The translations under genes were made by a program, and so were the position numbers. This document shows positions 3,461 through 37,421 of a stretch of 41,901 nt of DNA, piece by piece; position 1 is the stretch's first letter; each line of letters begins with the position of its first letter. Below the pieces are notes generated by a model that saw only the letters and a list, made by a program, of their open reading frames with translations, searched no databases and was not told the DNA's origin. The DNA is from Bacteroidota bacterium (lineage in GTDB: Bacteria > Bacteroidota > Bacteroidia > Bacteroidales > JAADGE01): assembly GCA_024277895.1 (NCBI GenBank), contig JAJRUH010000106.1, forward strand, positions 1-41,901. The letters run 5' to 3'.

Positions 3461-4564
3461 TCAATTCTTTTTATTTTTATTCATAATATTTGATTGTAAA
3501 CGTATTGACTCTCGATGAACAAGTTGTAAAATTCGTTTAATAAATTGATTGTCTATCCCCAGAGTTTTTCCGAAATCTTGCCGGGTTTTTGAAATATCTA
3601 ACCAACGTTTCAACTGGAAAATGCTCACATTGTTTTTTAATTTATATTTTCCGATGTCTTCGGTAATTTTCATACGTTTGTTAAGCAATTCAATGAGTTG
3701 AAAATCAATAGAATCGATTTGATCTCTGTATTGTTCTAAAATATCCGTAAATTCTGTATCATTCGAAGTTGATTTTCTGAATTTTAAGTTCTTAAGTAAT
3801 GTGTTTAAATCCGACGGTGTTAATTGTTGTTGTGCATCGCTTAAAGCAACATCGGGGTTGATGTGTGTTTCTATCATCAATCCGTCAAAATTTAAATCAA
3901 GTGCTTTTTGTGCAATATTTTTTATATATTCCCTTTTTCCGGCTATATGGCTGGGGTCGTTAATCAGCGGAATATCAGGAAATAAACTTTTTATTTCAAT
4001 TGCCAATTCCCATTTCGGAAGATTTCTTAAATTAATATTCTCGAAAGGATAAAATCCGCGATGGATTACACCTATATTTTTAATTCCGGCTTTTTGAAAA
4101 CGTTCTATTGCTCCTGCCCATAATTTAATATCCGGATTTAACGGGTTCTTTATTAAAACGGGAATATCAACTTCTTTTAAAGCATCGGCAAGTGCCTGAA
4201 CAGAAAAAGGATTTGCGGTAGTTCTTGCACCTATCCAAATAATATCCAAAGCATCTCTGTTTTTGAGACAAATTTCAATATGTTCCGGAGTAGCAGCTTC
4301 GGTTGTTGTTAAAAGTCCGGTTTCTTTTTTTACTTTTCGCAGCCATTCAAAAGCCGGTTCTCCTATACCTTCAAAAGTTCCGGGACTTGTTCTGGGTTTC
4401 CATATTCCGGCTCTGAACACTTTAACTTTTTTACACTCGGAGATTTGTTCGGCGGTTTCGATAACTTGTTTTTCTGATTCGGCACTGCAAGGACCTGCAA
4501 TTATAAATAAATCGCCGTTTTTTCTCGGTAAAAAAAGTTTATTTGCAGCGTTTTCTTCGGGCAT
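3461..4564 (-). CDS. Bifunctional 3-deoxy-7-phosphoheptulonate synthase / chorismate mutase
   Basis: Residues 1-260 are a type I-beta DAHP synthase, which condenses phosphoenolpyruvate with erythrose 4-phosphate as the first shikimate-pathway step. Motifs are IAGPCSAES, KPRTSPGTFEG, IHRGFYPFEN, DPSHIAGKREY and IETHINPDVALSDAQQQL. Residues about 275-367 form a helical chorismate mutase domain (YRDQIDSIDFQLIELLNKRM, then EDIGKYK). C-terminal fusion of the mutase is characteristic of Bacteroidota and suggests feedback by prephenate. I chose the ATG at 4564 over a TTG four codons upstream because the reading MPEENAANKLF is typical. The product is 367 aa. It stands alone, 52 bp from nusB. Confidence 0.93.
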   Translation of the reverse strand: MPEENAANKLFLPRKNGDLFIIAGPCSAESEKQVIETAEQISECKKVKVFRAGIWKPRTSPGTFEGIGEPAFEWLRKVKKETGLLTTTEAATPEHIEICLKNRDALDIIWIGARTTANPFSVQALADALKEVDIPVLIKNPLNPDIKLWAGAIERFQKAGIKNIGVIHRGFYPFENINLRNLPKWELAIEIKSLFPDIPLINDPSHIAGKREYIKNIAQKALDLNFDGLMIETHINPDVALSDAQQQLTPSDLNTLLKNLKFRKSTSNDTEFTDILEQYRDQIDSIDFQLIELLNKRMKITEDIGKYKLKNNVSIFQLKRWLDISKTRQDFGKTLGIDNQFIKRILQLVHRESIRLQSNIMNKNKKN

Positions 4565-4614
4565 TTTTTTTTGCAAAAATAAAGAAACTATTTAAGCATA
4601 GTTATTTTTTTTAA

Positions 4615-4622
4615 TAAATTTG
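4615..4622 (+). promoter_or_regulatory. Candidate -7 box (TAAATTTG) for the RlpA-like gene
   Basis: TAAATTTG matches the Bacteroidota -7 consensus TAnnTTTG and lies 28 bp before the ATG at 4651. No clear TTG box was found at the expected -33 distance, so support is partial. Confidence 0.4.
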
Positions 4623-4650
4623 TGATAATAATATTCAGAATATATTTTTT

Positions 4651-5043
4651 ATGATACAGAGAACAATAATTTTTGTTTTAGTAAGCGGATTTTTAATTGC
4701 CGGTTCGTGTTCCGTAAGTAAAGATAAAAAAGAACTTGCAAAATATGAATTTTATCAAAAAGGCGAGGCAAGTTGGTACGGTCCCGGGTTTAACGGAAAA
4801 AAAACCGCAAGCGGCGAAATATTTGATATGAATAAAATGACGGCGGCACACAGGAAATTACCGTTCGGCACAAAAGTTAAAGTTACTAATCTTAATAATA
4901 ATAAAAGTGTTGTCGTAAGAATAAATGACAGAGGACCTTACAAAAAAGGAAGAATTATTGATTTGTCAAGAAAGGCGGCAATTCAAATCGGTTTGGCAAA
5001 ATCCGGTGTTGCTCCGGTAAAAATTGAAATATTAAAAAAATAA
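4651..5043 (+). CDS. RlpA-like septal ring lytic transglycosylase (small lipoprotein)
   Basis: A 130-residue lipoprotein with lipobox FLIAGSC (Cys at about 20). The rest is one double-psi beta-barrel domain with the RlpA signatures GEASWYGPGFNGKKTASGE, AAHRKLPFGTKVKV and VRINDRGPYKKGRIIDLS. RlpA cleaves peptidoglycan strands that lack stem peptides and acts in the envelope. There is no SPOR domain, as in many short Bacteroidota members. It is followed 5 bp later by the macrodomain gene, so the pair is probably one transcript although no functional link is evident. Confidence 0.87.
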   Translation: MIQRTIIFVLVSGFLIAGSCSVSKDKKELAKYEFYQKGEASWYGPGFNGKKTASGEIFDMNKMTAAHRKLPFGTKVKVTNLNNNKSVVVRINDRGPYKKGRIIDLSRKAAIQIGLAKSGVAPVKIEILKK

Positions 5044-5048
5044 TTGAT

Positions 5049-5555
5049 ATGGACGACAGAATTGAACTTTTCAGAGGGGATATTACCGTGTTGAATGTTG
5101 ATGCAATTGTAAATGCCGCAAATAACAGTTTGCTGGGCGGCGGTGGTGTTGACGGAGCCATACACCGAGCAGCAGGAAAAGAATTGCTTGAAGAATGCAG
5201 ACTTCTGAACGGTTGTGCAACCGGAGATGCAAAAATAACGAAGGGATATAATTTGCCCGCAAAGTATGTAATTCATACGGTAGGTCCTGTTTGGTCGGGC
5301 AGGGAAGAGGATGCACAATTATTGAAAAGTTGTTATATCAGGAGTTTGGAAATTGCTTCGGAAAACGGAATAAAAACGATTGCATTTCCGAATATCAGTA
5401 CAGGTGTTTATCGTTATCCGAAAGACGAAGCAGCCGAAATTGCAATAAACACAGTAAATGATTTTTTGAAGAATCATTCAATACCCGGAAAAATCATTTT
5501 TGTTGTTTTTGATGATGAAAATTACCGAATTTACAAAAACCTGTTGAATGGCTGA
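5049..5555 (+). CDS. Macrodomain protein, O-acetyl-ADP-ribose deacetylase type
   Basis: A single 168-residue macrodomain of the MacroD/YmdB type. The N-terminal GDITVLNVDAIVNAANN segment binds ADP-ribose, followed by the LLGGGGVDGAIHRAAG loop and, near residue 115, the second ligand loop ISTGVYRYPKDEAA. The family hydrolyses O-acetyl-ADP-ribose and removes mono-ADP-ribose from acidic residues in the cytosol. All expected loops are intact. Its TGA overlaps the first codons of the next gene, suggesting translational coupling. Confidence 0.92.
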   Translation: MDDRIELFRGDITVLNVDAIVNAANNSLLGGGGVDGAIHRAAGKELLEECRLLNGCATGDAKITKGYNLPAKYVIHTVGPVWSGREEDAQLLKSCYIRSLEIASENGIKTIAFPNISTGVYRYPKDEAAEIAINTVNDFLKNHSIPGKIIFVVFDDENYRIYKNLLNG

Positions 5556-6115: not shown

Positions 6116-7645
6116 TTAAAATCCCGCAACTTTAATACTTACACGTCTGTTTTGAGCTCTGCCTCCCGGAGTATCTAATCGAGATTTAGGCTCTGAATTC
6201 GATACGGCTCTGATTTTAATACGTTTTTCAGATAATCCGTTTTTTATGAGATAAGCGGCAACCGCTTTTGCACGAGCTTCCGAAAGTTTTCTTCCGTCAT
6301 ACGTAAGAGCTTCCATATCGTCTGTATGACCGTCAATTTCAATAATAACATCAGGATTAAGGAATAAAGTTGCTATTAAATTATCTAATTCGGCATGTGC
6401 AAGAGCTGATAATTCTGTATTTCCCGATTTAAATCGCAGATTTTCGGTTTTAATTTCTTCATCTATAAATATTTTTCTCAACAAAACATCCCTGTTTACA
6501 TTATCGAATGTTGTAATTTGATTAATGTACAAATTTTCCGTGTATGTCCAATATCCTTTTGCTTTAACTTTAATATTGTAGTTATCTCCTGCAAAGAAAG
6601 AAGTGAAATAAACGCCTGTTCTGCGGCTTGATGCAGTTTCTGATATCAGTTCGTGTGTTTTGTTATTATATATTGAAACAACGGCATGGAGCGGCAACAA
6701 AGAATTTGCGTCTTTTATAATTCCTCTTAAATTTGTTTGTTTGATTACTTTAATATCATCAATATTGAAGTTTTTATTGGTTTCATCTTTATCAGAAATA
6801 AGAAAATCGCTTTCATCAAAATGAATCTTTCGTTCTTTCTCGTCAAAATCAAAACTTAATTCAAATTGTTTGTATCCGTTAAATTTAACAATGTAAAATT
6901 CTTGCCTCAAATCAAAATGTTCACGGAAGATGTTATTTATTTTTACTTTATAATAATCCGAAACAGGGATATACATTTCAAAATAGCCGTCTTTATCTGT
7001 TAAAACAGAATATGTTTTACCATTACCTTCAACGGTAATTTTAATATTATCTAAAGGAATATCTCCGAGAGCCGAATGTTTAGAACGGTGCAGGTTTATT
7101 TTTCCGAAAAGTTTATTTCGTTCCATAAACGGAATATACATTACCGTATCTTTGTTTGCCGAAAATTTTTTAACGGAGCCTTCAGATTCAAATTTTTCGG
7201 TTTGAACATCTTGCGGAATATAATTAATTAAATATGTTCCTTCTGCAATGTTGTCGTATTCTATTTTGCCTTCTTCATTTGAATATAATTCGTTCGATAA
7301 GAATTCTCCGTTATAGTTTTTATTTTTCAAATCTTGTTCGGGGTATGCTCTGTTTATATTAACAAGAACGTCGGGTACACCGGGTTCGTTTGCATCGTGA
7401 ATTCTGTTTCCGTTCAAATCTTTATAAAAAACAGCAGTGTATTTATAATATTTTATACGCGGTTGTTGTATGTCAAAGGATTTTTTTATTCCGAATTCAA
7501 AATATGAAGAAGAGAATGTGTTTGACCCTGAATTGTTATTAACTCTGTGAAAAGATGATGTATTTAAGAAATTGACTTCCCAACCCTTGCCCGCAAGCCA
7601 GCTTATTCCGGTATTTAAGTTAATTCTGCTGCTTTTTGATGACAA
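6116..7645 (-). CDS. C-terminal part of interrupted barrel / SdrD-like / OmpA protein (putative usher-like)
   Basis: This 509-residue stretch continues in the same frame as the gene ending at 7658; only TAA and four sense codons separate them. Its first about 60 residues look like the last strands of an outer-membrane barrel (INLNTGISWLAGKGWEVNF). Then come an SdrD B-like repeat with the calcium-loop motif FYKDLNGNRIHDANEPG, two or more carboxypeptidase-regulatory-like beta domains, and a C-terminal OmpA peptidoglycan-binding domain (EIDGHTDDMEALTYDGRKLS, then EARAKAVAAYL). The only upstream start in frame is TTG at 7645, with no signal peptide behind it. On its own it could not be exported, so I treat it as a fragment of one gene spanning 6116-9691. 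Confidence 0.8.
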   Translation of the reverse strand: MSSKSSRINLNTGISWLAGKGWEVNFLNTSSFHRVNNNSGSNTFSSSYFEFGIKKSFDIQQPRIKYYKYTAVFYKDLNGNRIHDANEPGVPDVLVNINRAYPEQDLKNKNYNGEFLSNELYSNEEGKIEYDNIAEGTYLINYIPQDVQTEKFESEGSVKKFSANKDTVMYIPFMERNKLFGKINLHRSKHSALGDIPLDNIKITVEGNGKTYSVLTDKDGYFEMYIPVSDYYKVKINNIFREHFDLRQEFYIVKFNGYKQFELSFDFDEKERKIHFDESDFLISDKDETNKNFNIDDIKVIKQTNLRGIIKDANSLLPLHAVVSIYNNKTHELISETASSRRTGVYFTSFFAGDNYNIKVKAKGYWTYTENLYINQITTFDNVNRDVLLRKIFIDEEIKTENLRFKSGNTELSALAHAELDNLIATLFLNPDVIIEIDGHTDDMEALTYDGRKLSEARAKAVAAYLIKNGLSEKRIKIRAVSNSEPKSRLDTPGGRAQNRRVSIKVAGF

Positions 7646-7657
7646 GTTATTTATGTA

Positions 7658-9691
7658 TTACCCTCTTAATGAAAGTCTTATTTTATCGTTTAAAATAAAT
7701 TTTTCGTAAAAGGGGATAATACTGAGGGATTTTGAATAAACGAGAGAGTAGAAATAAGCAAATTGTTGAGAAATATTATAAGGACCGAGATGATAAATTA
7801 AATGTAATCCGAAATTTTTTTGTTTGTAACTTGCAGTAATTTGTGCAACATTGTAGCGTTGCTCTCCTAATCTGTCTTCGTAAGAAATACCGTTTAAAAA
7901 AAAGGAATATTTGTAAACAGATGTAAGTCCGTATTTAGCTGAAAAAGTAAAAGAATTATCGTTAAATTTATTATAAATACGTGCTCCCGCCTCTAACATC
8001 CCTGTATATGTTGAAAATATATCGGCAGGATCATAAAAATAAAAATTATTTGTGCTTTCGTAGTCTAAATTCGGACCTGCATATATGTATATATTTTTCG
8101 GGGTATAATATCCGATTTGTAATTTTAGTTTTTGAAATTTATTATATCTTTCTGATGTTATTTCGGTATTTGTAATAATTATCGGATGATAGCTTTGACT
8201 AAAATATTGCATACTTAGAAACTTGTTTTTATTTACCGGAGAATTAATAAGTGCTTCGGTATATTGTCTTCCTTGAGAATATCCGTAATAAAAAGGTGAG
8301 CCGTAATCGCTTCTGATATTATAACGAATTGTTTTTATTTTTCCGGATAAACCGGCTCTGTATCCCCATCCGTTGTATGTTCTGTTTACGACAAATCTGT
8401 TATATTCGGAAATGCTGTTTCCGAAAAGAAAGAAAATATTGTTTCGTAAAAAATTAGAAGAAATCTTACCGAAACCAAGTTTAAAATTATCCGAAAAATT
8501 TTTATCTTCGGAATATACTGCACCTGCTTCTATTGTAACAGGGAATGAAAATTTTTGGGAGTAATCCAAAGCATAGTTTTGAATATCTCTCACAAGTCTT
8601 TTTGTATAAGCACCTTTAATTATAGTATTTTTATTGATTTTTTGTGATATATATATACCTCTGCCGTACATACTTCTTTCAAATGTTCCGGTGTAATCTC
8701 CGAGAAAAATTGTAGTTTTATTACTGTTAAATTGTGTTTCTACTCGGCTGTTTATCCATAAATTTGCTCCTGTTTGTCTGTTGAAATTTTCAAAAGAATA
8801 AGATATTTCTTTTTTATTTTCTAATAAAATGTTACCGAAAGCCATTCCTATATATACCGGTTTAGAATTACCGAAAATATTAAAGGCGGTAAATTCTAAA
8901 TTTAAAGGTTTTTTGTATTCCGGAGCTTCATTCTTATATTTCCAATCAATATATTTAAACCAAATAGTTTTTTTTATAATTGAATCATGAAGATTAATAT
9001 CAATAATTAATTTATGTACGCGATATTTTTTATAATCAATTTGATTGTTTAGAATTACATCATACTTTATTTTTTTAGAATTTCCGGAGTTTACGCTTAA
9101 ATGATCAATATTTATTTTCTCATGATCTTTTTCAACTGATAAACTTTTGTCGGGGGTAAAATTAATTGTGATAAGTTCATCGATGTTTCCCAAATTTTCA
9201 ATGTTTATTTCGAAACTTGATTTTAATTGTTTTTGGTTAAAATATGCAGATGTTTTACTTGTACTGATTTTTACATTTGATAATACGGGTATTTTTACAA
9301 ACGAATATACTGTATTAAAAATCGAACCCTTTTCATCATTTATAATTGCTACAACTGCATATCCTACACCCCCGTTTGCATGTTTGGATAATGAAACTCT
9401 CACGGGAACAGATGTTTCCGCATAAGATTGTAATGTTATTTTCTCGTAGGTATTTCCTATAAACTTCCAATCTTTTGGTGTGTTAAATTGAACATTAAAC
9501 GATACAGGTTTGTCAGTTTTATTTTTTATGTATAAAATATTAAAGAAAGATTTCCCTTGTTCTACTTCTACCTGATCTTTCAAAAAACGAACTTCTATGT
9601 CTCCTTTATTTAGGGTATTTTGACTTAGTCCTGAATATACGATAATTGTCAGGGCAAATAACAAGAGCAAATATTTTTTTTGAAAAGTCAT
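7658..9691 (-). CDS. N-terminal part of interrupted outer-membrane barrel protein (putative usher-like)
   Basis: A 677-residue product with a signal peptide ending ...IIVYSGLSQ. Two Ig-like domains follow (about 28-130 and 135-245; the first resembles NEW3-type domains, with FFNILYIKNKTDKPVSFNV). From about 260 to the end come alternating aromatic strands typical of an outer-membrane beta barrel (WINSRVETQFNS, YGRGIYISQKI, GYSQGRQYTEALI). It ends abruptly at LSLRG in mid-barrel. It follows two small secreted proteins, and a PapD-like chaperone is encoded divergently nearby. The usher role is an inference from this context; I see no sequence motif that proves it. Confidence 0.75.
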   Translation of the reverse strand: MTFQKKYLLLLFALTIIVYSGLSQNTLNKGDIEVRFLKDQVEVEQGKSFFNILYIKNKTDKPVSFNVQFNTPKDWKFIGNTYEKITLQSYAETSVPVRVSLSKHANGGVGYAVVAIINDEKGSIFNTVYSFVKIPVLSNVKISTSKTSAYFNQKQLKSSFEINIENLGNIDELITINFTPDKSLSVEKDHEKINIDHLSVNSGNSKKIKYDVILNNQIDYKKYRVHKLIIDINLHDSIIKKTIWFKYIDWKYKNEAPEYKKPLNLEFTAFNIFGNSKPVYIGMAFGNILLENKKEISYSFENFNRQTGANLWINSRVETQFNSNKTTIFLGDYTGTFERSMYGRGIYISQKINKNTIIKGAYTKRLVRDIQNYALDYSQKFSFPVTIEAGAVYSEDKNFSDNFKLGFGKISSNFLRNNIFFLFGNSISEYNRFVVNRTYNGWGYRAGLSGKIKTIRYNIRSDYGSPFYYGYSQGRQYTEALINSPVNKNKFLSMQYFSQSYHPIIITNTEITSERYNKFQKLKLQIGYYTPKNIYIYAGPNLDYESTNNFYFYDPADIFSTYTGMLEAGARIYNKFNDNSFTFSAKYGLTSVYKYSFFLNGISYEDRLGEQRYNVAQITASYKQKNFGLHLIYHLGPYNISQQFAYFYSLVYSKSLSIIPFYEKFILNDKIRLSLRG

Positions 9692-9784
9692 AAATAAATT
9701 GGATCAATTTCCGATTACTTCTGTTGTCGTTTTTTCTTTCTTTAATTAAAATTTATGTTACTAAAAATAAAAGATATTAAGAAA

Positions 9785-10267
9785 TTACTCTCCCATAAGT
9801 GTAAATAGCAAATCTACGACATAGTAATCAGAATTCTTCCCAAGCAGAGAATTAGTAACTCCGCACCGATAACTTACTGATACTGTAACCGTTCCCGGAG
9901 CGGTTTCGGCTGCCCCCGTTAATAATGAGATGTCGGTATTAGTGAGAAATTGGTATCCGGCAGATGTTCCGGCTCCGGTAGCTTGAAGTTCCAGTATATC
10001 CAAATTTAAAGTATTTCCGCCGGCTCCGTTTATTTGCGGAGTTAATGCTTTTACATCAATTCTCCAATTAGGAAAAGAGTTCGCAACAGTTGTATCTTTA
10101 TAGTACACCACAAATTTGGTAAAATCATTATAAGTAATCCCTGTTTGGTATTTTTGGTAAGAATTAAAATAAAAATTTACCGAACTTCCTGAACTTATGT
10201 TTAACCTCGCTTGACCAAATAATGAAATACTTGACCAAATAAATAAAACAACCAACAGCTTTTTCAT
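9785..10267 (-). CDS. Small secreted protein, candidate fibre subunit 2
   Basis: A 160-residue protein with a clear signal peptide (MKKLLVVLFIWSSISLFGQ). I use the ATG at 10267 instead of a TTG at 10294 because the signal peptide then begins at once. The mature chain opens ARLNISSGSSVNFYFNSYQ and closes SDYYVVDLLFTLMGE. Both ends match the neighbouring gene (RLNITSGGNLEYVVNT and RYVVNAIIELSQ), so the two are paralogues. An all-beta, Gly/Thr-rich mature chain with a conserved hydrophobic C-terminal strand fits a pilin-like or coat-like subunit. Function is inferred from similarity and the barrel and chaperone genes beside it. Confidence 0.7.
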   Translation of the reverse strand: MKKLLVVLFIWSSISLFGQARLNISSGSSVNFYFNSYQKYQTGITYNDFTKFVVYYKDTTVANSFPNWRIDVKALTPQINGAGGNTLNLDILELQATGAGTSAGYQFLTNTDISLLTGAAETAPGTVTVSVSYRCGVTNSLLGKNSDYYVVDLLFTLMGE

Positions 10268-10331
10268 ATTCTTTTCTGTATCAATTTTATTCAATTATAT
10301 TGAAATGAAATTATTGATAATACTATAAAGG

Positions 10332-10360
10332 AAAAATCCGGATATTGAATTCGGATTTTT
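10332..10360 (-). terminator. Terminator-like hairpin between the two candidate subunits
   Basis: AAAAATCCG at 10332-10340 pairs with CGGATTTTT at 10352-10360 around an 11-nt loop. Read leftward the right half ends in a short T-run. It lies between subunit 1 (ending 10383) and subunit 2 (starting 10267), where a partial terminator would make the first subunit more abundant than the downstream barrel protein. Confidence 0.6.
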
Positions 10361-10382
10361 CCAAAAGAATTATGACAAGGTT

Positions 10383-10982
10383 TTAATGCTGTGATAATTC
10401 TATTATTGCATTTACAACATATCTGTCAGAAGTAATACTTTGTTGTAACAATGATGAAGTATTCATTCCTCCCCCTTCGTTTGTTCCGAGTCTCCATTGT
10501 ATAACAAAAGCATTTTGATTAATATCGCCGGCCCCGAGTCCGGGAAAATTACCGTCTATAATAGTTGTGCCGGCATTTGATAATGCAATAACAGTATTTT
10601 GTAAATTCCAGTTTGTTCCGTCAACACCGGTTGCACCGGCGTCCGGGGCAACTAAATAACCTAAATTATCTAACGGAATAGTGTGAGTAGCATCATCAAC
10701 ACCTATAAAAGTAGCAGCATCTGCAGTAAGTGTAACATCAAAATCAACAGAAGATGCAACGGTGAAATGTGTATCGTAACGAGCATTTTGAGCAATACCG
10801 TTGGTATATTGGTCAATTGTGTTTACAACATATTCCAGATTTCCTCCGCTGGTAATATTTAATCTTAATATAGAATTAAGTGTTACGCCTACGGGGATAA
10901 CACCGGAATCGGAAACAGGTTGTGAAAAAGCTGCAGTTACTGAAAATAATACTGCGGTTAATAAAATAGTCAATTTCTTCAT
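10383..10982 (-). CDS. Small secreted protein, candidate major fibre subunit 1
   Basis: A 199-residue protein with a signal peptide (MKKLTILLTAVLFSVTAAFS, cleaved near QPVSD). The mature protein is acidic, rich in Thr, Asn, Gly and Ala, with few Lys, and predicted all-beta. The segment ILRLNITSGGNLEYVVNT and the last strand RYVVNAIIELSQH recur in the next gene. It resembles small periplasmic or coat-type subunits that chaperones of the PapD class deliver, but I do not recognise a named family. It is followed by a terminator-like hairpin at 10332-10360. The 100 bp upstream to the phosphatase gene are AT-rich and could hold its own promoter. Confidence 0.7.
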   Translation of the reverse strand: MKKLTILLTAVLFSVTAAFSQPVSDSGVIPVGVTLNSILRLNITSGGNLEYVVNTIDQYTNGIAQNARYDTHFTVASSVDFDVTLTADAATFIGVDDATHTIPLDNLGYLVAPDAGATGVDGTNWNLQNTVIALSNAGTTIIDGNFPGLGAGDINQNAFVIQWRLGTNEGGGMNTSSLLQQSITSDRYVVNAIIELSQH

Positions 10983-11082
10983 GATATTAGTATTTTTGGT
11001 TAATGAAAATGATTTTAAAGTTAATAAGTATAATAAAGTACTAAAGTATAAAAATAGAACAAAATATTATAATATCCAAATT

Positions 11083-12990
11083 TTATTGAGGAAACAGTTT
11101 AAATCCGATAATGACAATATCGTCAACTTGTTCTAAATTACCCTGCCATTTTTTTAAAAACATATCTAAAATATCTCTTTGTTCGTTTAAGGGTTTGTTA
11201 TGTATGTCTCCTAATAAACTTCTGAAAAATTTAGTCATAAGCTTTCGTCCGGTTTGTTCTCCTATTTGGTCTGCATATCCGTCAGAAAATATGTAAACTG
11301 TTGTCGGACTGTCAATTTCGATACTTGTTGTTTTAAATTTAATCTGTTCATTTCTATCATATAAAATGCCTCCGATAGGTTTTATACTTCCTTTTACACG
11401 ATGCAGTTTATTATCTTTAATATAAATGACAGGATTTTTTGCACCTGAAAATTCCAATAAATTATTTTCGGGACTGTAACTGCAAAGAGCCATATCCATT
11501 CCGTCTCTGTTTGATGATTCGTTTTGTCTTAATGATTTTCTTATTCCGTTATGTAATTCATCAAGTATTTTGCCCGGTTTAAATATCTTTTGTTGTTCTA
11601 CTATATTATCAAGTAAATTGTAACTTAACATTGATAAAAAAGCCCCGGGAATTCCGTGTCCGGTACAATCAATAGCAGAAACAAATATATTTTGATGCCG
11701 GTCAGATTTTTCGGGATTTACGATAACATCTTTAAACCAGTAAAAGTCGCCGCTTACTTTATCTCTCGGTTTGAATAATATAAAAGATTCAGGTATTAAT
11801 TTTTGAAGTGAATTTTGACTCGGTAACATTGATTTTTGGATATTTACAGCATAATTAATACTTGCCTTAATATCTTTGTTTTGTTCGTCGATTTTATTAA
11901 ATGCGTCTGTAAGTTCATTATTTTTTAATTCGATATTCCTTTTTTGGCGTTCTATTTCTTCATTTGTTTCATGCAATTGGCGGTTGTGTTTTTTTCTGCG
12001 TCTGATATTTAATACCAGAATAAAAGAAACAAAAAGAATAAGTGCAATAATTCCGATGCCGATAGTATAAACTAATCTTTGTTTTGCTTTTTCTTCTTTT
12101 GCCATTGCTTCACCGAGCAAACGATCTTTTTCAGCTTGTGCGTATTTACTTTGTTCAAGGGCAATAGCAGTTTCGGCAATTTTTAAAGAATCTTGTTTTG
12201 CTCTTATTGCTCTGTTTAAAGTGTCTTCTGCAATTTCTTTATTTTTTCTTATTAATTCTAATTCTAATTGTTTGGCTCTGTTTTCAGATTCTTTCATGCT
12301 TATTTCGGCAACTGACTTAATTCGTTCTTCACTGACACGCTCTTTTGATTGACTCTTCTCATAATGTTGCCTGTAAGTAGCAAATTTATCCATATATTCG
12401 GCAGCTTTTTGCATATTTCCGGCTTTCTGATAATTTTCTGCAAGCATATTATAACTGATAAGAACCAGTTTAGGTTCTTGTATTCGGTTTGCAATATCCA
12501 AAGCTTTAAGAATATTTAATATGGCATTTTTATAATCTTGCTGAACAGAAAGAATGTATGCAAAATCCAGTAAGCCCGATGCAATTTCTTTTTCGTTACC
12601 GATACTTTTGCGAATTTTTAAACTTTGTTGAAAATACCTGAGTGATTTATCATATTTATCCATATTAGAATAAATCAATCCGATATTACTGTATATTTTC
12701 ATAACTTTTTTAAAGTCTTTTATTTTTCCGTAAAGTTTTGCAGATTCATTTAAGTAAGGAATTGCTTTTTCTCCGACATTTTTTTCAAAACAATAAAGAC
12801 CGGCTTTATAATATGAATTGGCTGCATCTTTTATATTATCATTACCGATATCATTATTGGCATCATTAATAAAGGCATTAATATTTTTTTTATCTTTTGC
12901 GGAAAGTTGTCCGAAACTTACATTGGAGGATATAACAATAATTATTATAAGAAATAATTTATATAAAATTTGTTGTTTTTTTATGTTCAT
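11083..12990 (-). CDS. TPR-containing SpoIIE/PP2C-type serine phosphatase (SiaA-like role possible)
   Basis: A 635-residue sensor phosphatase. It has a signal peptide (about 1-27, ending NVSFGQ), four to five TPRs (about 30-205, extracytoplasmic), a long coiled coil (220-300), one membrane helix (306-328), a second short coiled coil and a cytoplasmic SpoIIE domain (about 385-635). Metal ligands are present: SGDFYW (Asp 415), AIDCTGHGIPG (Asp 441), DGMDMAL, FSDGYAD and the final DDIVIIGF. Such enzymes dephosphorylate STAS-type or SiaC-type proteins; a SiaB-like kinase and a SiaC-like protein are encoded 2.5-4 kb away. It heads the leftward subunit and barrel genes. The TPR-TM-SpoIIE layout is common in Bacteroidota. 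Confidence 0.88.
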   Translation of the reverse strand: MNIKKQQILYKLFLIIIIVISSNVSFGQLSAKDKKNINAFINDANNDIGNDNIKDAANSYYKAGLYCFEKNVGEKAIPYLNESAKLYGKIKDFKKVMKIYSNIGLIYSNMDKYDKSLRYFQQSLKIRKSIGNEKEIASGLLDFAYILSVQQDYKNAILNILKALDIANRIQEPKLVLISYNMLAENYQKAGNMQKAAEYMDKFATYRQHYEKSQSKERVSEERIKSVAEISMKESENRAKQLELELIRKNKEIAEDTLNRAIRAKQDSLKIAETAIALEQSKYAQAEKDRLLGEAMAKEEKAKQRLVYTIGIGIIALILFVSFILVLNIRRRKKHNRQLHETNEEIERQKRNIELKNNELTDAFNKIDEQNKDIKASINYAVNIQKSMLPSQNSLQKLIPESFILFKPRDKVSGDFYWFKDVIVNPEKSDRHQNIFVSAIDCTGHGIPGAFLSMLSYNLLDNIVEQQKIFKPGKILDELHNGIRKSLRQNESSNRDGMDMALCSYSPENNLLEFSGAKNPVIYIKDNKLHRVKGSIKPIGGILYDRNEQIKFKTTSIEIDSPTTVYIFSDGYADQIGEQTGRKLMTKFFRSLLGDIHNKPLNEQRDILDMFLKKWQGNLEQVDDIVIIGFKLFPQ

Positions 12991-13125
12991 ATTTCTTTCT
13001 TTGCAATCATAAAAAATATTTCAAAAAAACTGTAAATAGTTGAAAATCAGGCTTTGGTGTTGTGATTTTTCAGGTATTTCGGTTTTTGCAGTTTCAAATA
13101 ATTATGAAAATTAATAATAAATATC

Positions 13126-13133
13126 TATATTTG
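13126..13133 (+). promoter_or_regulatory. Candidate -7 box (TATATTTG) for chaperone and MORN genes
   Basis: TATATTTG fits the Bacteroidota -7 consensus and lies 40 bp before the ATG at 13174, in the 183-bp divergent spacer between the phosphatase gene and the chaperone gene. No TTG lies at the expected -33 distance, so the call is partial. Confidence 0.45.
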
Positions 13134-13173
13134 AAAATATAAAACTAAATTATTTTTCCTAAACTCCCAAAAA

Positions 13174-14025
13174 ATGCAAAAAATTAATTTATTTTTAATA
13201 GGTTTAATTTTTATTATTCCGCTGAAAATTAAAGCTCAGGATTTTGAAGTGGCTCCTGTAAAAATGAATTTCAGAGTTGATCCGGAAGAGTCTCAAACAA
13301 AAATTCTTTCTGTGAAAAATCATTCAAATTTCAGAACTTCTTTTACAATTTCATTTGCTGATTTTATTATTGATAAAAACGGTAACAAACAAGCAATTGA
13401 AAAAAATTCGTCCAAAACTTCCTGTACTGAATGGATAACACCTGAAAAAACTTTTTTTGACATTAATCCGAATGAACAAGTTAAAATAAAAATTACCATG
13501 CATCCGCCGATTGATGATTATACAACACGCTGGGCATTAATGTATATTCAAACAGTTAATGAAAAAACAAGTTTTGATGTTGAAGAAGGTGTTGGTGCGG
13601 GAGTCAGATTAAGCGGACGAATTGCTGTAGCAATATACAGAGATCCCATTGTTAGACTGACACCTAAACTAAAAATAAAAGATTTAAGAGAAATCTCGGA
13701 TGCAGATTCAACGCATCGGTATTTTGTAACTGATATAACAAATGTCGGAAAAAATATTGCAAAATGTAAAGTTATGTTTATTGCATCAGATTTAAATACG
13801 GCTGAAGAATTTGATTTTGACCCTGTTTATTTAGATTCTTATCCGGGGTTTTTGAGACAAGTAAAATTTAAATTACCGAATACATTACCTCCGGGAAAAT
13901 ATTCTTTTGCCGTTTTGCTTGATTACGGAAAAGATGTTACAATTGAAGGCACTCGTTTAAATAAAACTTTAATTATTTTGCCGAAAAAGGACAGTAATAT
14001 TGAGAACAATAAAAATAAAAAGTGA
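13174..14025 (+). CDS. PapD-like periplasmic chaperone
   Basis: A 283-residue secreted protein (signal peptide to about residue 22, ending KIKAQ). It has two Ig-like domains, as in fimbrial chaperones. Domain 1 (about 24-150) shows FEVAPVKMNFRVDPEESQTK, then KILSVKNHSNFRTSFTI and the PNEQVKIKITMHPP strand. Domain 2 (about 165-270) shows DITNVGKNIAKCKV and LPPGKYSFAVLLDYG. Such chaperones bind subunits by donor-strand complementation and pass them to an usher. It is encoded divergently from the subunit and barrel genes. Its TGA overlaps the GTG of the MORN gene by 4 bp. The classical subunit-anchoring Arg/Lys pair cannot be assigned with certainty by eye. Confidence 0.75.
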   Translation: MQKINLFLIGLIFIIPLKIKAQDFEVAPVKMNFRVDPEESQTKILSVKNHSNFRTSFTISFADFIIDKNGNKQAIEKNSSKTSCTEWITPEKTFFDINPNEQVKIKITMHPPIDDYTTRWALMYIQTVNEKTSFDVEEGVGAGVRLSGRIAVAIYRDPIVRLTPKLKIKDLREISDADSTHRYFVTDITNVGKNIAKCKVMFIASDLNTAEEFDFDPVYLDSYPGFLRQVKFKLPNTLPPGKYSFAVLLDYGKDVTIEGTRLNKTLIILPKKDSNIENNKNKK

Positions 14026-15074
14026 TACGAATCAGTCTTATTGTATTAATTCTTAATATTTTATCAATTTCGTCTTTCAGTCAGAAATTAATAAAAACTT
14101 TCTATGATATTGATAAAAATAATATTAAAGAAGAATATTATGCCTTTGTTAATAAACAGGATACAATAAAACACGGACATTATATTTATTATAATAAGTC
14201 CGGCGACAAGATACAGGAGGGAGAGTTTGTAAGAAATTTAATTGAGGGTAAATGGAAAATATATTATAAAAACGGAAAAATAAAATCAATTATAAATTTT
14301 AAAAAGAATAAAAGAAACGGCAGGTTTAAACATTTTTATGAAACCGGAGAAATAAAACAAACCGGAGTATATAAAAACGGATTTCCCGAAGGAGAAATAA
14401 TTACATATTATAAAAACGGAAACCCTAAAATCAAAGGGTATTATACAGACGGTGTTTTAAACGGGAAAGTTGAAAATTGCCGAGAAGACGGAACACTTGA
14501 GGATGTACAGAATTATGTATTAAATAAGCCTGTTGGTTTTTGGGAAGCATATTATGATACCGGAGAATTAAATTATAAAGGAAAAAAAATAAACGGATAT
14601 TATTCTGACAGTTTGTTTGTATATTATAAAAGCGGACATTTAGAACGAAAATGTTTTTATTCCGAAGGTCTTTTGCAGGGAAAACTAACCGCATATTATG
14701 AAACCGGACTTTTAATGGCAGAATATTATTACGAGAACGGTAAATTAAACGGGAATTATAAATCATATTATAAGAACGGGAGCATTGCAGAAACCGGGAA
14801 TTATAAAAATAATTCTCGATTCGGACATTGGAAATCTTATTATCCCGAAGGTCAGTTGTTTTCCGAAGGAAACTATAAAAACAGTTTATATGACGGTGTT
14901 TGGAATGTGTTCTATCCGAACGGAAAATTGAAACAAAACGGAAAATATATTAAGGGTAAAAAAGAGGGGATACAAAAAACATATTACGAAAGCGGTAATT
15001 TAAAAGAAATAACAAATTATAAAGCAGGCAAAAAAACAGGGAAAAACATATTATATAATGAAAAAATTAAATAA
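14022..15074 (+). CDS. MORN / YwqK-type repeat protein, secreted
   Basis: A 350-residue protein starting with GTG at 14022 (GTGA overlap with the chaperone stop), with an N-terminal hydrophobic signal (LIVLILNILSISSFSQ). The whole mature part is about 13 repeats of 22-24 residues of the form YY-x-NG-x-(3-6)-G-x-Y-x(2)-G-x(2)-G-x-W, as in MORN and YwqK-like proteins. Such repeats form elongated beta sheets and act as scaffolds or lipid or protein binders. YwqK in Bacillus is called an antitoxin, but that label does not carry over to secreted Bacteroidota members. Tight coupling to the chaperone suggests a role in the same surface structure. Confidence 0.8.
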   Translation: MIRISLIVLILNILSISSFSQKLIKTFYDIDKNNIKEEYYAFVNKQDTIKHGHYIYYNKSGDKIQEGEFVRNLIEGKWKIYYKNGKIKSIINFKKNKRNGRFKHFYETGEIKQTGVYKNGFPEGEIITYYKNGNPKIKGYYTDGVLNGKVENCREDGTLEDVQNYVLNKPVGFWEAYYDTGELNYKGKKINGYYSDSLFVYYKSGHLERKCFYSEGLLQGKLTAYYETGLLMAEYYYENGKLNGNYKSYYKNGSIAETGNYKNNSRFGHWKSYYPEGQLFSEGNYKNSLYDGVWNVFYPNGKLKQNGKYIKGKKEGIQKTYYESGNLKEITNYKAGKKTGKNILYNEKIK

Positions 15075-15478: not shown

Positions 15479-16624
15479 ATGGAAGACCATCAGTATAATT
15501 TAAAGCAAATTGATTTAGCATATGAACTTACAAAATATGTTAATGAAGATTATTTCGAATATATTTATCGCGGGTATTTTTCTGAAAATATCACTGAAAA
15601 TATCCTGAATTTGAATAATGCTAAATTTGTTAATGAATCAGAAATTTCGGCATACAAAAACAAAATATCTTATTTCCTGATAGAATCTCTTCAAAATGTT
15701 ATCAGACACCAGGATACTGTTGAAAATAACAGTATTTCAAGCGAAGGATTATTAGTCATTCAAAAAACGAATAATTCTGTCTATTTAACAACTGCAAATG
15801 TTATTAGGAATGAGAATATTCCGGTTTTAGATTCGTATTTAAAAAAAATAAAAAATTTATCTCCTGATGAATTAAAAGTTGAATATCAAAAAATATTATT
15901 GGATGGTGTGATTAGCGAAAAAGGCGGAGGAGGATTGGGAATAATTACCATGGCAAGACGAACTGACGGTCATATTCATTATGATTTTAAGAAAATTAAT
16001 GATAAATTCTCTTATTACTATTATCAAATTCAATTAATATTCAGTGATAAAAAAAGTAATGAAAATGTATTTGAATTAATTTCATTAGACAGGCTCTCAA
16101 AATTTCATGAATTATTAAATACTGAAAATATTCTTTTAAATTTTAACGGTTCTTTTGCGTTTCAAAATTTGGAAAGTTTATTACCCATTATAGAATCTCA
16201 TTCAATAGGTGGGAAACCCACAAAACAAAAGATTTTTGATTTGACTGTAAAATTAATCAGAAATATTGTTGATTTTGCAGACGATTTTGCAGACGATGCC
16301 GATTCCGGAAAAAGAAACAGTCGAGGTGTATATCTGTTAAGTAAAAAGAACGGAAAACTGTACTTAACAGCAGGAAATTTGATATTAAATGAGAAAATGA
16401 ATGTTTTAGGAAATAAAATTAAACTTATAAACAATACCCAAAAAGAAAGTCTTACAAAAATAAGGGACTATTTAAATGAATTTTTTAAGTTCGATTTAAC
16501 AAAAAAACCGGATATAAATTTGATTGACATGCGTTTAAAAAATGATTGCAATAAAATAAAATATGTATTTAAAACTGTTAATAAAAAAACATCATATTTT
16601 ATACTGCAATTAGTAATTAATTAA
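15479..16624 (+). CDS. Tandem SiaB-like (DUF6272) kinase-type protein
   Basis: A 381-residue protein made of two SiaB/DUF6272 units with the HATPase-like fold. Unit 1 (about 1-195) has the family motifs FLIESLQNVIRHQ and GGGGLGIITMARR, the latter typical of the nucleotide loop. Unit 2 (about 200-381) repeats the pattern (ENILLNFNGSFAFQNLESLL, then IFDLTVKLIRNIVDF) but has no Gly-rich loop and is probably inactive or regulatory. SiaB phosphorylates SiaC in Pseudomonas. A 12-bp tandem duplication (GATTTTGCAGAC) near 16275 encodes FADDFADD. It ends tail-to-tail with the SiaC-like gene, overlapping it by 8 bp. Confidence 0.78.
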   Translation: MEDHQYNLKQIDLAYELTKYVNEDYFEYIYRGYFSENITENILNLNNAKFVNESEISAYKNKISYFLIESLQNVIRHQDTVENNSISSEGLLVIQKTNNSVYLTTANVIRNENIPVLDSYLKKIKNLSPDELKVEYQKILLDGVISEKGGGGLGIITMARRTDGHIHYDFKKINDKFSYYYYQIQLIFSDKKSNENVFELISLDRLSKFHELLNTENILLNFNGSFAFQNLESLLPIIESHSIGGKPTKQKIFDLTVKLIRNIVDFADDFADDADSGKRNSRGVYLLSKKNGKLYLTAGNLILNEKMNVLGNKIKLINNTQKESLTKIRDYLNEFFKFDLTKKPDINLIDMRLKNDCNKIKYVFKTVNKKTSYFILQLVIN

Positions 16625-16997
16625 CTATTGCAACAAGTTCAAAGGGAAGATTAATTAATTCCGTCAAGTCTTCACCCATTTCCATAATGTCTTCATCATC
16701 TTCATCGTAGTACCATTTAACTTTAATTTTCTTACCTCGATCCATATAACCGTTAAGGAAAATCAAAATTTGAAAAATCTTTTTGTGTGAAGCACTGTTT
16801 AAAACCGTAAAATAAAACTCACAGACTAATTCTTTTTCCAAATTAGGAAGATGTTCTTCCATCCATTTAATAACAGGGTCATATACTGCTAAAATATCTT
16901 CGGAGAAAGACGGTCCTTTTATTTGAAAAATATTCTCTTTTAAATCTAAACTGATCAGAGGTGTTTTCCTTGTTTTTTTAAGATAGATGCTTTCCAT
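16617..16997 (-). CDS. SiaC-like regulatory phosphoprotein (DUF1987)
   Basis: A 126-residue single-domain protein. Typical DUF1987 features are the N-terminal TPLISLDLKENIFQIKGPSF strand pair, a YDPVIKWMEEHL helix, and the central FYFTVLNSASHKKIFQIL segment, where the Asn-Ser-x-Ser motif puts Ser 68 at the place of the phosphorylated Thr of Pseudomonas SiaC. It lacks a membrane segment and should be cytosolic. With the SiaB-like kinase opposite and the SpoIIE phosphatase upstream it would complete a SiaABC-type switch. No GGDEF partner (SiaD) was found in the window, so the output is not known. Confidence 0.82.
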   Translation of the reverse strand: MESIYLKKTRKTPLISLDLKENIFQIKGPSFSEDILAVYDPVIKWMEEHLPNLEKELVCEFYFTVLNSASHKKIFQILIFLNGYMDRGKKIKVKWYYDEDDEDIMEMGEDLTELINLPFELVAIVN

Positions 16998-17143: not shown

Positions 17144-19197
17144 TTATGTTTCTATCAATTCAATACTTCGCTTAACAAATTTATTTAACGATTTGCCTTT
17201 CAGCATATTGTTTGCTAATAAACCTAAGTCGATTAATTGTTTTACTAATTTTTGCTTTTTTCCGAATTTTGTCAGCAAATCTCTTTTTTTGTTTTCAATT
17301 TCACTTATTTTTTTGTTTAATTCTTCCCGTTTATCTTTTTCTTCCTGCGGAATTTCCTCTTCTTTTTTATCTTTTTGAAGCGTATTTAAGGCATCAATTT
17401 CCGAATTTATTTTATCTTTTTCTTCTTTTATTATTTTCAAATCTTTTTCTAATTCTTTATGAAGTTTTTTATTTAAATTAAGAACTATTTTGTGATTTGA
17501 ATTTACAATAAGATTGAAACTGTCGGGTAAATTTCCGTAAAACGAAGCTTCTCCGCCGAGTTTCGACATATCTTTCATACGCCTCACAAATTCGTTTTGT
17601 GTAACAATTGTAGGGTTGGCGGTTTTACGCATAGCTTCAAAACTTACAAGGAAAGTTGCATCTTCAGGTAATTGACTTTGAAATACCTGCGATAAATTAT
17701 CTTCATCTTCTTTTGTTAATTGAGATTCAAATTTCTCATCTTTTTGAATTAATTTATCAATTACATCGGCATCAACACGTGTAAATCGAGTACCTTCGAG
17801 TTTTGTTTCAACTTGATTAATGAAATGAGCATCCAATTGACCGTCCATTATTAATACGTCATAACCTTTTTCTTTTGCCTCTTCAATAAAACTGTATTGT
17901 CCTTCCGGGTCGGTTGTATATAAGTATATTAAGTTTTTATCTTTATCAGTTTGATTGGGTTCGGTAATTTTTTTATACTCGTCAAAAGTAAAAAACTTCC
18001 CTTCCGTATTTTGCAATAAGAAAAATTTCACGGCCTTTTCATAAAATTTCTCATCACTTAACATTCCGTACTGGATAAAAATTCGTAAATCATTCCATTT
18101 CTTTTCAAAATCTTCACGTTCTTTTGTAAAAAGTTCTTTTAAACGGTCGGCAACTTTTTTGGTAATATGGCTTGATATTTTTTTACGTTCCTGTCGCTTT
18201 GTAAATAACTTCTTGACACATTCAACGGAATGTCCGGTGAATCCAATACTCCGTGAAGTAAGGTTAAAAATTCAGGAACGATACCTTCAACTGAATCGGT
18301 TACAAATACTTGTCGCTGAAAGAGTTGAATTTTATTTTTTTGTATTTCAATGGTGTTTTTGAATTTCGGGAAATACAATATTCCGGTTAAATTAAAGGGA
18401 TAATCAACATTAAGGTGAATGTAAAACAAAGGCTCTTCGAAACTTCCGGGATATAATTCTTTATAAAAATTTTTATAATCGTCATCTGTCAAATCTGCAG
18501 GCTTTTTTGTCCAGGCAGGTGTTGTATTATTTATAATATGATCTTTATCCGTTTCAACAGATTTGTTATCTTTCCACTCTTTTTCTTTACCGAAAGCAAT
18601 TTCTACAGGTAAAAATTTACAATATTTATTCAATAATTCTTCAATTTTTGAATCTTCCAGGAAATTTTCGGAATCTTTGTCAATGTGCAGAATAATATCA
18701 GTTCCTCTGTTTTCTTTTTCGACCTCTTCTAATGTAAAATCCGGGCTTCCGTCGCATTCCCATCTTACTGCCGGTTTTTCGGTCTTATATGATTTAGAAA
18801 TAATTTCAACTGAATCGGAAACCATAAAAGACGAATAAAAACCCAGTCCGAAATGTCCGATTATTGCATTGGCATCATCTTTATGTTTTTCTATAAAATC
18901 TGTAGCACCTGAAAATGCAATCTGATTGATGTATTTATCAATTTCTTCTTTATCCATTCCTATTCCTGCATCCGAAACTGTTATTGTTTTGGCTTTTTTG
19001 TCAATTTTAACTCTAACAGTTAAATTGCCCAATTCGTCTTCATATTCACCTTTTGATGATAAAATTTTTATTTTTTGAGTGGCATCAACGGCATTCGAAA
19101 TTAATTCTCTTAAAAATATTTCGTGATCGGAATAAAGAAATTTTTTAATAATAGGGAAAATGTCCTCACCTGTAACATTTATTTTTCCTTTTTGCAT
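17144..19197 (-). pseudogene. htpG: Chaperone HtpG (Hsp90), interrupted by a one-base frameshift
   Basis: The gene reads as HtpG throughout but in two frames. From the ATG at 19197 the N-terminal ATPase and middle domains are intact (ELISNAVDATQKI, DAGIGMDKEE, GHFGLGFYSSFMV), up to SYLQSDRNVKK. There the frame is lost and a stop follows at 18139. The -1 change is in a run of seven A on the minus strand (plus 18178-18184); with eight A the reading continues VKKISSHITKKVADRLKELF and joins the second frame, which runs to 17144 (middle-C and C-terminal domains, GEASFYGNLP-like). Restored length is 684 residues, normal for the phylum. It may be a true mutation or an assembly error in a homopolymer. 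Confidence 0.92.
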
Positions 19198-37307: not shown

Positions 37308-37421
37308 CAGCTTGCGACTGAAAAATAATAGAAATGTATTTAAACATAACTTTCAAATATTTTTGTGCAAGTTTGTGTTATCTGTGTGATTTTATGTGTA
37401 AGTATATATAGTATCGGAAAA

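Follow-up and report, generated by a model that had tools for sequence, protein, structure and literature searches.

A probable chaperone-usher-like fibre locus of Bacteroidota with a peptidoglycan-anchored outer-membrane barrel

The contig JAJRUH010000106.1 of the assembly GCA_024277895.1 (Bacteroidota bacterium; Bacteroidales, JAADGE01) was analysed over its whole length of 41,901 nucleotides, hereafter referred to as the window. A group of genes at positions 6116–15074 had been read, from the sequence alone, as a possible chaperone-usher-like fibre system of a new kind. All the genes named in that sequence-only reading were present in the list of open reading frames (ORFs), namely a chaperone-like gene, a MORN-repeat gene adjoining it, two genes of small proteins (designated here as sub1 and sub2) and two barrel ORFs, which form one reading frame (Table 1). 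A Pfam and NCBIfam scan of the window proteins assigned the barrel part, sub1, sub2 and the chaperone to no accepted family, and the ORF at 6116–7645 (minus strand) was found to contain OmpA and CarboxypepD_reg domains as well as an SdrD_B match right at the cut-off. Taken together, the results described below make it quite probable that the locus encodes a fibre or pilus built by donor-strand exchange with chaperone-usher logic.

The model of sub1 was built from 29 sequences (predicted local distance difference test, pLDDT, 90.4). It consists of a coil at residues 22–38, directly after the signal peptide, and a beta-sandwich in the remainder of the chain. The stretch between the end of the signal peptide and the core has 17–18 residues in all 29 family members; positions 28, 29, 31, 33 and 35 hold hydrophobic residues in 28 or more of them, and position 32 holds a small one in all 29. 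Sub1 is predicted, from these sequences and the model, to be a pilin with an incomplete immunoglobulin-like (Ig-like) fold and a free N-terminal donor segment. A Foldseek search with the model gave seven matches with E ≤ 0.001, which were TLP-1b (4e-8), TLP-1a (4e-6) and five CfaB chains. Above this value, CS17, CfaA-CfaB, SafA, CooA and FimA were interspersed with cannulae, TasA and glycoside hydrolases. After re-alignment, Z was 10.3 for TLP-1a (root-mean-square deviation (rmsd) 3.5, 157 residues aligned) and 10.0 for TLP-1b (3.4, 161 residues), and chaperone-usher pilins gave Z of 5.7–7.1, a range that the tool terms a common arrangement. A match of A7 to EcpA (32%, E 4.7e-4) was not used, its alignment starting in the signal peptide. 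Sub1 and sub2 proved to be true paralogues, as had been read (hhalign 99.2%, E 1.4e-19). In the sequences compared, the mature chain of sub2 begins near the core, without the N-terminal segment, so sub2 could accept a strand and could hardly donate one. A distance (Q to R) obtained for sub2 from the alignment counts was set aside, being caused by the alignment columns.

TLP-1a and TLP-1b (PDB 9ikj and 9ikk) are 2024 entries of fibrils solved by cryo-electron microscopy, with 16 copies per model, which we take to be the CryoSeek pond-water filaments. In that work, a donor strand reportedly runs from protomer n+4 to protomer n, and uncharacterized bacterial pili are said to have been suggested. 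A 2026 review (PMC12967142) describes filtered pond-water filaments as not conclusively identified and as having no matching proteomic or metagenomic sequences. No gene cluster for TLP-1 fibrils was found in the openly licensed papers searched. A profile of the sub1 family built without TLP-like members found only TLP-1b (8.7e-4) and TLP-1a (1.8e-3) in the PDB, over residues 29–90. Homologues of TLP-1b were found in two genomes of the same order (loci and genomes carry our L and G numbers): one in L089 of G087 (4456–5247, minus strand; 7e-44, near full length) and one in L079 of G074 (10893–11699, plus strand; 1.1e-9). Both genes have neighbours from the chaperone and barrel families described here; in L089 the barrel is split in two, and a sub2-like gene is also present. 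When the ORFs of eight loci were searched with a sub1 profile from which these two homologues had been left out, they matched at 3e-13 and 5e-11. The match of the A13 pilin profile to TLP-1 is partly circular, because A13 contains both TLP-like proteins, and it was not used as a test. Judged by these profiles, sub1 and the TLP-1 subunits are members of one wider pilin family, and, since the TLP-1 homologues adjoin chaperone and barrel genes, TLP-1 fibres could well be made by this machinery. The fold of sub1 is shared with TLP-1 over model residues 22–199, whereas the chains differ in length (236–237 amino acids (aa) in TLP-1 versus about 179 mature residues in sub1).

The chaperone candidate is about 280 aa long, signal peptide included. 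PapD_N matches were found in two of 21 chaperone members (best 4.1e-4) and also in the L163 chaperone (9.4e-4 over residues 36–161), and all were below the curated cut-off. EcpB, an accepted chaperone, scores 0.017 with the same domain, which is weaker than these members. Residues 143–158 are GVRLSGRIAVAIYRDP, with residues 144, 146, 150, 152 and 154 hydrophobic in 23–24 of 24 members; by eye, this stretch resembles TLQLAIISRIKLYYRP of FimC, the strand that FimC lends to subunits. Chaperones of the PapD family have two Ig domains and donate a G1 strand; the assignment as a putative PapD-like chaperone with a G1-type strand is weak but supported. Designed ankyrin chains found in the PDB with phmmer were discarded, no single stretch passing.

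The barrel protein was modelled using the L093 orthologue (1191 aa, 31 sequences; pLDDT 83.2, predicted TM-score 0.56), which has the same length and numbering and serves for all domain residues given here and in Table 1. In the AlphaFold model, an Ig-like region (residues 32–253) is followed by strands at residues 263–739, counted as about 26, by beta domains at 748–1060 and by the OmpA domain at 1085–1190. The expected Ig-like N-terminus and SdrD/OmpA C-terminus were borne out by Pfam and by the model, and the protein does carry its own peptidoglycan-binding domain. The claim that it lacks a recognised usher sequence also held: the usher profile PF00577 was above its cut-off in none of the 99 genomes searched, with the E. 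coli control matching, and none of the usher families PF00577, PapC_N and PapC_C was among the families listed by Pfam for 21 barrels, although absence from such a list is not counted as exclusion. One match in G052 (19.9 bits) was below the cut-off and was rejected, Pfam finding no usher in that ORF. Similarly rejected was PorE of type IX secretion, which gave 58 bits versus a cut-off of 600 and matched the shared carboxypeptidase-like and OmpA end only.

The end of the barrel protein varies. An OmpA end was found by Pfam in 13 of the 21 members of the barrel alignment, in which the row of the window stands without its end; a SPOR end was found in L164 (2.6e-25) and, below the cut-off, in L163, L079 and L156, and a LysM end in L160 (4.9e-6). 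The barrels with these other end domains lie at 5523–8540 in L160, 8852–12508 in L164 and 3172–7647 in L163. No Pfam peptidoglycan-binding domain was found in the barrels of L145, L146 and L152, which have 932–948 aa. The predicted peptidoglycan anchor of the barrel is thus different in different lineages, being OmpA, SPOR or LysM. Judging from the sequences and the model, the barrel would act as an assembly platform, only putatively one of the usher family.

The same set of genes was then found in other genomes. A scan of named contigs gave 39 loci, of which 32 have a barrel of at least 880 aa; neighbours were counted within 10 kb. Sub1 and sub2 were each present in 31 of these 32 loci, the chaperone and the MORN gene each in 22, a PP2C-type gene in 28, SiaB in 8 and SiaC in 12. 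In the 19 loci with at least 7 kb of upstream sequence, sub1, sub2 and PP2C were found in all (the PP2C match in L106 is weaker and lies downstream), the chaperone and the MORN gene in 18 each, SiaB in 7 and SiaC in 11. The recurrent order is sub1-sub2-barrel; in most cases, a chaperone-MORN pair diverges from it, with a PP2C phosphatase gene in between. Because this gene set is conserved, chance grouping is excluded. The named-contig loci come mostly from metagenome bins labelled Bacteroidales, Bacteroidota and Chlorobiota, with one isolate, the cultured environmental species Perlabentimonas gracilis (L125), whose chaperone gene is located past the end of the contig.

A search with the N-terminal part of the barrel gave matches in 27 of the 99 genomes, including that of the window; the chaperone was found in 29 and both in 25, so that only 4 of the 72 barrel-free genomes had a chaperone. 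Counted by hand at the genus level, the chaperone is present in 15 of 16 barrel genera versus 17 of 85 genera overall. The hypergeometric probability of such co-occurrence is 4e-17 when genomes are counted and 1e-13 when genera are, values to be read with care given the relatedness of the genomes. Of the 25 genomes with both genes, 18 have the pair on a single contig and within 10 kb. A second, shorter barrel copy (925 aa), accompanied by a further chaperone and a further MORN gene, is present in two same-genus relatives, G013 and G008 (L028/L078 region).

In a phylum sample of 296 genomes, the chaperone was found in 25, including the genome of the window, and 20 loci from 16 of these 25 genomes were chosen around the chaperone matches. 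A barrel matching the barrel-family profile was found in 12 of the 20 loci; the MORN gene was present in none of these 12, versus 18 of the 19 order-level loci. In G166 and in the nearly complete genomes G110, G193 and G308 from another family of the class, the chaperone gene adjoins a barrel gene of 931–936 aa, and several small secreted proteins are encoded beside them. In at least seven proteins of four genomes, with lengths of 342–345 or 477–478 aa, the pilin profile is significant only in the last 115–130 residues, which corresponds to the architecture of two-domain tip adhesins such as FimH and CfaE. In L154, L160, L163 and L164, four of the other eight loci, a large unmatched neighbour adjoins small secreted proteins, and in L163 a DUF4402 protein (2.2e-8, above the cut-off) adjoins the chaperone. 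These sequence comparisons support conservation of a set of chaperone, pilin-type subunits and barrel in Bacteroidales and of a divergent form of it in other Bacteroidota. Two profile counts were not used: the barrel profile matched 287 of 296 genomes and is uninformative, most listed matches being to the C-terminal OmpA end, and the A13 pilin profile (12 of 296) is circular, as A13 has rows from seven of those genomes plus that of the window. Rows of similar 181-aa pilin-like genes were observed upstream of the chaperone and barrel in L147 (G193) and L149 (G308); subunit variation is possible there.

The following scheme of assembly can be suggested. Sub1 would be the shaft pilin, its predicted Ig-like fold lacking one strand and its N-terminal segment remaining free. 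The chaperone would cap sub1 in the periplasm by lending a G1-type strand, and the N-terminal Ig domains of the barrel protein would receive the chaperone-subunit complexes. As the domain order suggests, the growing fibre would pass the outer membrane through the barrel, and the C-terminal OmpA domain would grip the peptidoglycan. Sub2 may sit at the free end as a tip or initiating subunit (tip subunits of chaperone-usher pili take up a strand without giving one and often have two domains), and the MORN protein could be a coupled accessory. Chaperone-usher logic is supported here by homology and by prediction.

A number of results weigh against this scheme. The TM-scores of sub1 to TLP-1 are low (0.4–0.5; 0.45–0.52 for TLP-1b), and its fold matches outside TLP-1 share their Z range with TasA, CEP192 and cannulae. 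The proposal that sub2 is a tip or initiating subunit candidate rests on its missing segment. An hhalign comparison with the chaperones, ushers and pilins of E. coli K-12 gave no signal for the chaperone, the barrel or the pilin, in a set-up that also misses EcpB and EcpC and is therefore underpowered and not taken as proof of absence. WxLIP_PGBD matches 16 of 21 chaperone members (best 2.5e-7) and outscores PapD_N; the claimed PapD-like chaperone keeps its sub-cut-off PapD_N matches and G1-like pattern but is matched better by another domain. Three loci (L155, L158 and L159) have a chaperone match without a recognisable barrel or pilin, and 7 of the 25 barrel-chaperone pairs are on different contigs or farther apart, the pair in G082 being probably split by a contig end.

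The barrel itself adds to these points. Ushers have a 24-strand barrel with a plug domain. In the model with about 26 strands, a plug-sized insertion is absent. In the Foldseek search with this model, seven multi-Ig chains outrank FimD, which comes eighth when taken as a whole chain (3.4e-10), with a TM-score of 0.23–0.32, in the low range of 0.2–0.4; PapC, LptD and MtrB come next (2.5e-7 to 5e-6). The best barrel in re-alignment was MtrB (Z 20.1, rmsd 5.7, 426 residues), versus Z of 14.4–15.4 for FimD and PapC. The individual values were 15.4 for FimD (rmsd 10.0, 485 residues, model residues 260–949), 14.5 for the FimD pore (6.3, 349), 14.4 for PapC (6.6, 354) and 14.4 for Fiu (7.2, 330). No sequence profile linked the barrel to ushers. 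Thus, of the fibre system read from the sequence, the set of chaperone, donor-strand-type pilins and outer-membrane barrel was supported, but an usher barrel of 24 strands with a plug was not.

As for the origin of the barrel, it is tentatively proposed, with rather less than even confidence, that Bacteroidota export TLP-1-type donor-strand pilins via a plugless 26-strand barrel that is not an usher, arose independently and carries exchangeable anchors. It is also possible, though doubtful, that the system is a true but very divergent alternate chaperone-usher system (alpha, class 5/Ecp-like), whose barrel is an usher with two additional strands and with its plug lost or relocated. After TLP-1, the nearest known pilins are those of class 5 (CfaB and CfaE), and EcpC, an accepted alternate usher, is likewise missed by PF00577, so the profile negatives do not refute a new usher type. 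EcpC also has a CarboxypepD-like end (CarboxypepD_reg 1.2e-4), like these barrels, and the alignment of FimD takes in the domains behind the barrel, but with the large rmsd given above. A divergent usher agrees less well with 26 predicted strands, the missing plug and the better fit of MtrB. In addition, the plug-region profile TcfC had no match in the genome of the window, and its listed matches in G110, G193 and G308 lie away from the barrels. CooC_C, which matched in L162, was rejected as a mark of alternate ushers, being unspecific (88 of 296 genomes match, many with ORFs of about 1000 aa).

The barrel could also be an anchor and not an exit, in which case sub1 and sub2 would leave the cell otherwise, for example by type IX secretion, and the barrel would tether the fibres to peptidoglycan. 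Its C-terminal OmpA, SPOR and LysM domains and the lack of a match to ushers fit such a role; however, no Por sorting domain was found by Pfam in the two small proteins of the window or in 19 members of the sub1 family, and the chaperone accompanies the barrel in 25 of 27 genomes, which is a better fit to joint assembly, so that this explanation is unlikely. Least probable of all is a surface system other than a pilus, with small Ig-like proteins displayed on the cell and a chaperone-like protein that acts as a binder similar to WxL-interacting proteins: EfmWxLIP1 is the best match of the chaperone profile in the PDB (1e-4) and agrees with the WxLIP_PGBD scores, but homologues of sub1 have been solved in the form of helical fibrils, and relatives encode two-domain tip-like proteins.

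Among known systems, the closest in kind to the proposed donor-strand fibre are the alternate chaperone-usher pili. Several features of the class 5 pili (CFA/I, CS1/CS17 and Ecp) have a predicted or candidate counterpart here: the pilin fold with an N-terminal donor segment, the chaperone, the separate tip-like protein and the outer-membrane barrel with a CarboxypepD-like end domain. In contrast, the family of the window has no sequence match to an usher or to CfaB/EcpA, and the window combines a 26-strand plugless barrel with a peptidoglycan anchor, a MORN partner and a Sia switch. Type 1 and P pili (FimACD and PapACD) are similar in logic, in the PapA/FimA-like pilin fold and in the presence of FimD among the whole-chain matches, but no sequence homology to them was found by the underpowered hhalign test. 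Type V pili (FimA and Mfa1) of Bacteroidia belong to the same phylum, and a donor-strand polymer has been proposed for them. For P. gingivalis, according to PMC5789003, chaperone and usher genes had not been described, and proteolytic cleavage matures the subunits. Identity of sub1 with a type V pilin, which is made as a lipoprotein precursor, was rejected, since no FimA/Mfa1-type Pfam family was found in 19 sub1 members and 28 of 29 members have no cysteine in their first 30 residues.

The copy of the barrel gene in the window is interrupted. The ORFs at 7658–9691 and 6116–7645 (both on the minus strand) are one reading frame, whose sole interruption is the TAA shown in Table 1, codon 678 of 1192. 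No internal stop was found among the barrel matches listed for the 27 matching genomes of 99, and, among relatives from the same genus, the 11 that match in full have the barrel as a single open frame of 1191–1217 aa; other broken copies are those of L124 (two ORFs) and L139 (two pieces). Compared with its closest relative, the barrel of the window has 489 of 677 residues identical before the stop (72%) and 453 of 513 after it (88%), and the differing codons after the stop comprise 137 synonymous and 60 non-synonymous ones. The better conservation after the stop and the synonymous excess indicate that the stop is recent, is an assembly error or is read through. The htpG (Hsp90) gene just past the SiaC gene is also split, by a frameshift, into 17144–18064 (306 aa) and 18139–19197 (352 aa), both on the minus strand, and is one 684-aa frame in the relatives L060 and L061. 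Consensus errors in this draft genome are therefore likely, which favours such an error at the barrel stop. On this sequence evidence, the interruption is most likely a consensus error or a recent mutation.

Table 1. Features of the putative fibre locus and of the adjacent Sia-type genes (positions in the window).
Feature	Position	Strand	Basis
Barrel gene (assembly-platform candidate)	6116..9691	-	Single frame, 1192 codons, TAA at 7658-7660
Barrel protein, N-terminal Ig-like domains	8933..9598	-	AlphaFold model; FixG_C-like and GBS104-like Ig matches
Outer-membrane beta-barrel, about 26 strands, residues 263-739	7475..8905	-	Strands of the model; contains the stop codon
C-terminal Ig/transthyretin-like domains (SdrD_B, CarboxypepD_reg)	6512..7450	-	Pfam and model
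OmpA peptidoglycan-binding domain	6122..6439	-	Pfam OmpA 7.3e-16
sub2, sub1 paralogue without N-terminal donor segment; tip-subunit candidate	9785..10294	-	
sub1, major pilin candidate, homologue of TLP-1a/1b fibril subunits	10383..10982	-	
Candidate donor strand of sub1, residues 22-38	10869..10919	-	Residues 29, 31, 33 and 35 hydrophobic in 29/29 members
TPR and SpoIIE/PP2C phosphatase, SiaA-like regulator	11083..12990	-	Pfam/NCBIfam-type profile matches
Periplasmic chaperone candidate	13174..14025	+	Weak PapD-like
G1-like strand of chaperone candidate, residues 143-156	13600..13641	+	Residues 144, 146, 150, 152 and 154 hydrophobic in 23-24/24 members
Secreted MORN_2-repeat protein	14022..15074	+	Pfam MORN_2 1.3e-34; start overlaps chaperone stop
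SiaB-family protein kinase (DUF6272)	15479..16624	+	NCBIfam SiaB_fam_kinase 165 bits, cut-off 85
SiaC-family regulatory phosphoprotein	16617..16997	-	Pfam SiaC 2.1e-33, 115 bits over 24.5

Genes of SiaB- and SiaC-family proteins and of a SiaA-like phosphatase flank the fibre locus. In PMC7647112, SiaABC of Pseudomonas aeruginosa is described as a partner switch controlling aggregation and biofilm. The phosphatase, kinase and phosphoprotein of the window belong to the same wider families; they differ in that they flank a fibre locus and in that the window proteins do not reach the narrow SiaA/B/C equivalog cut-offs of NCBIfam. A Sia-type phosphatase/kinase/phosphoprotein switch would probably couple fibre making to aggregation or biofilm growth.

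Elsewhere in the window, a macro-domain protein gene adjoins the locus (5049–5555), a further protein with an OmpA end and PD40 propeller repeats is encoded at 29200–31554, and a putative ten-transmembrane (10TM) heavy-metal exporter of the ArsP_2 family is encoded at 37365–38456, all on the plus strand.

With this locus, putative genes, a host phylum and a possible assembly apparatus can be proposed for the TLP-1a/1b fibres. If the proposed donor-strand fibre is true, Bacteroidota would gain a chaperone-driven pilus route alongside type V pili, and the barrel would be an example either of the extent to which ushers can diverge or of pilus translocation that evolved on a different, cell-wall-bound barrel. 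Should the barrel be independent of ushers, the usher step of pilus assembly would have arisen more than once.

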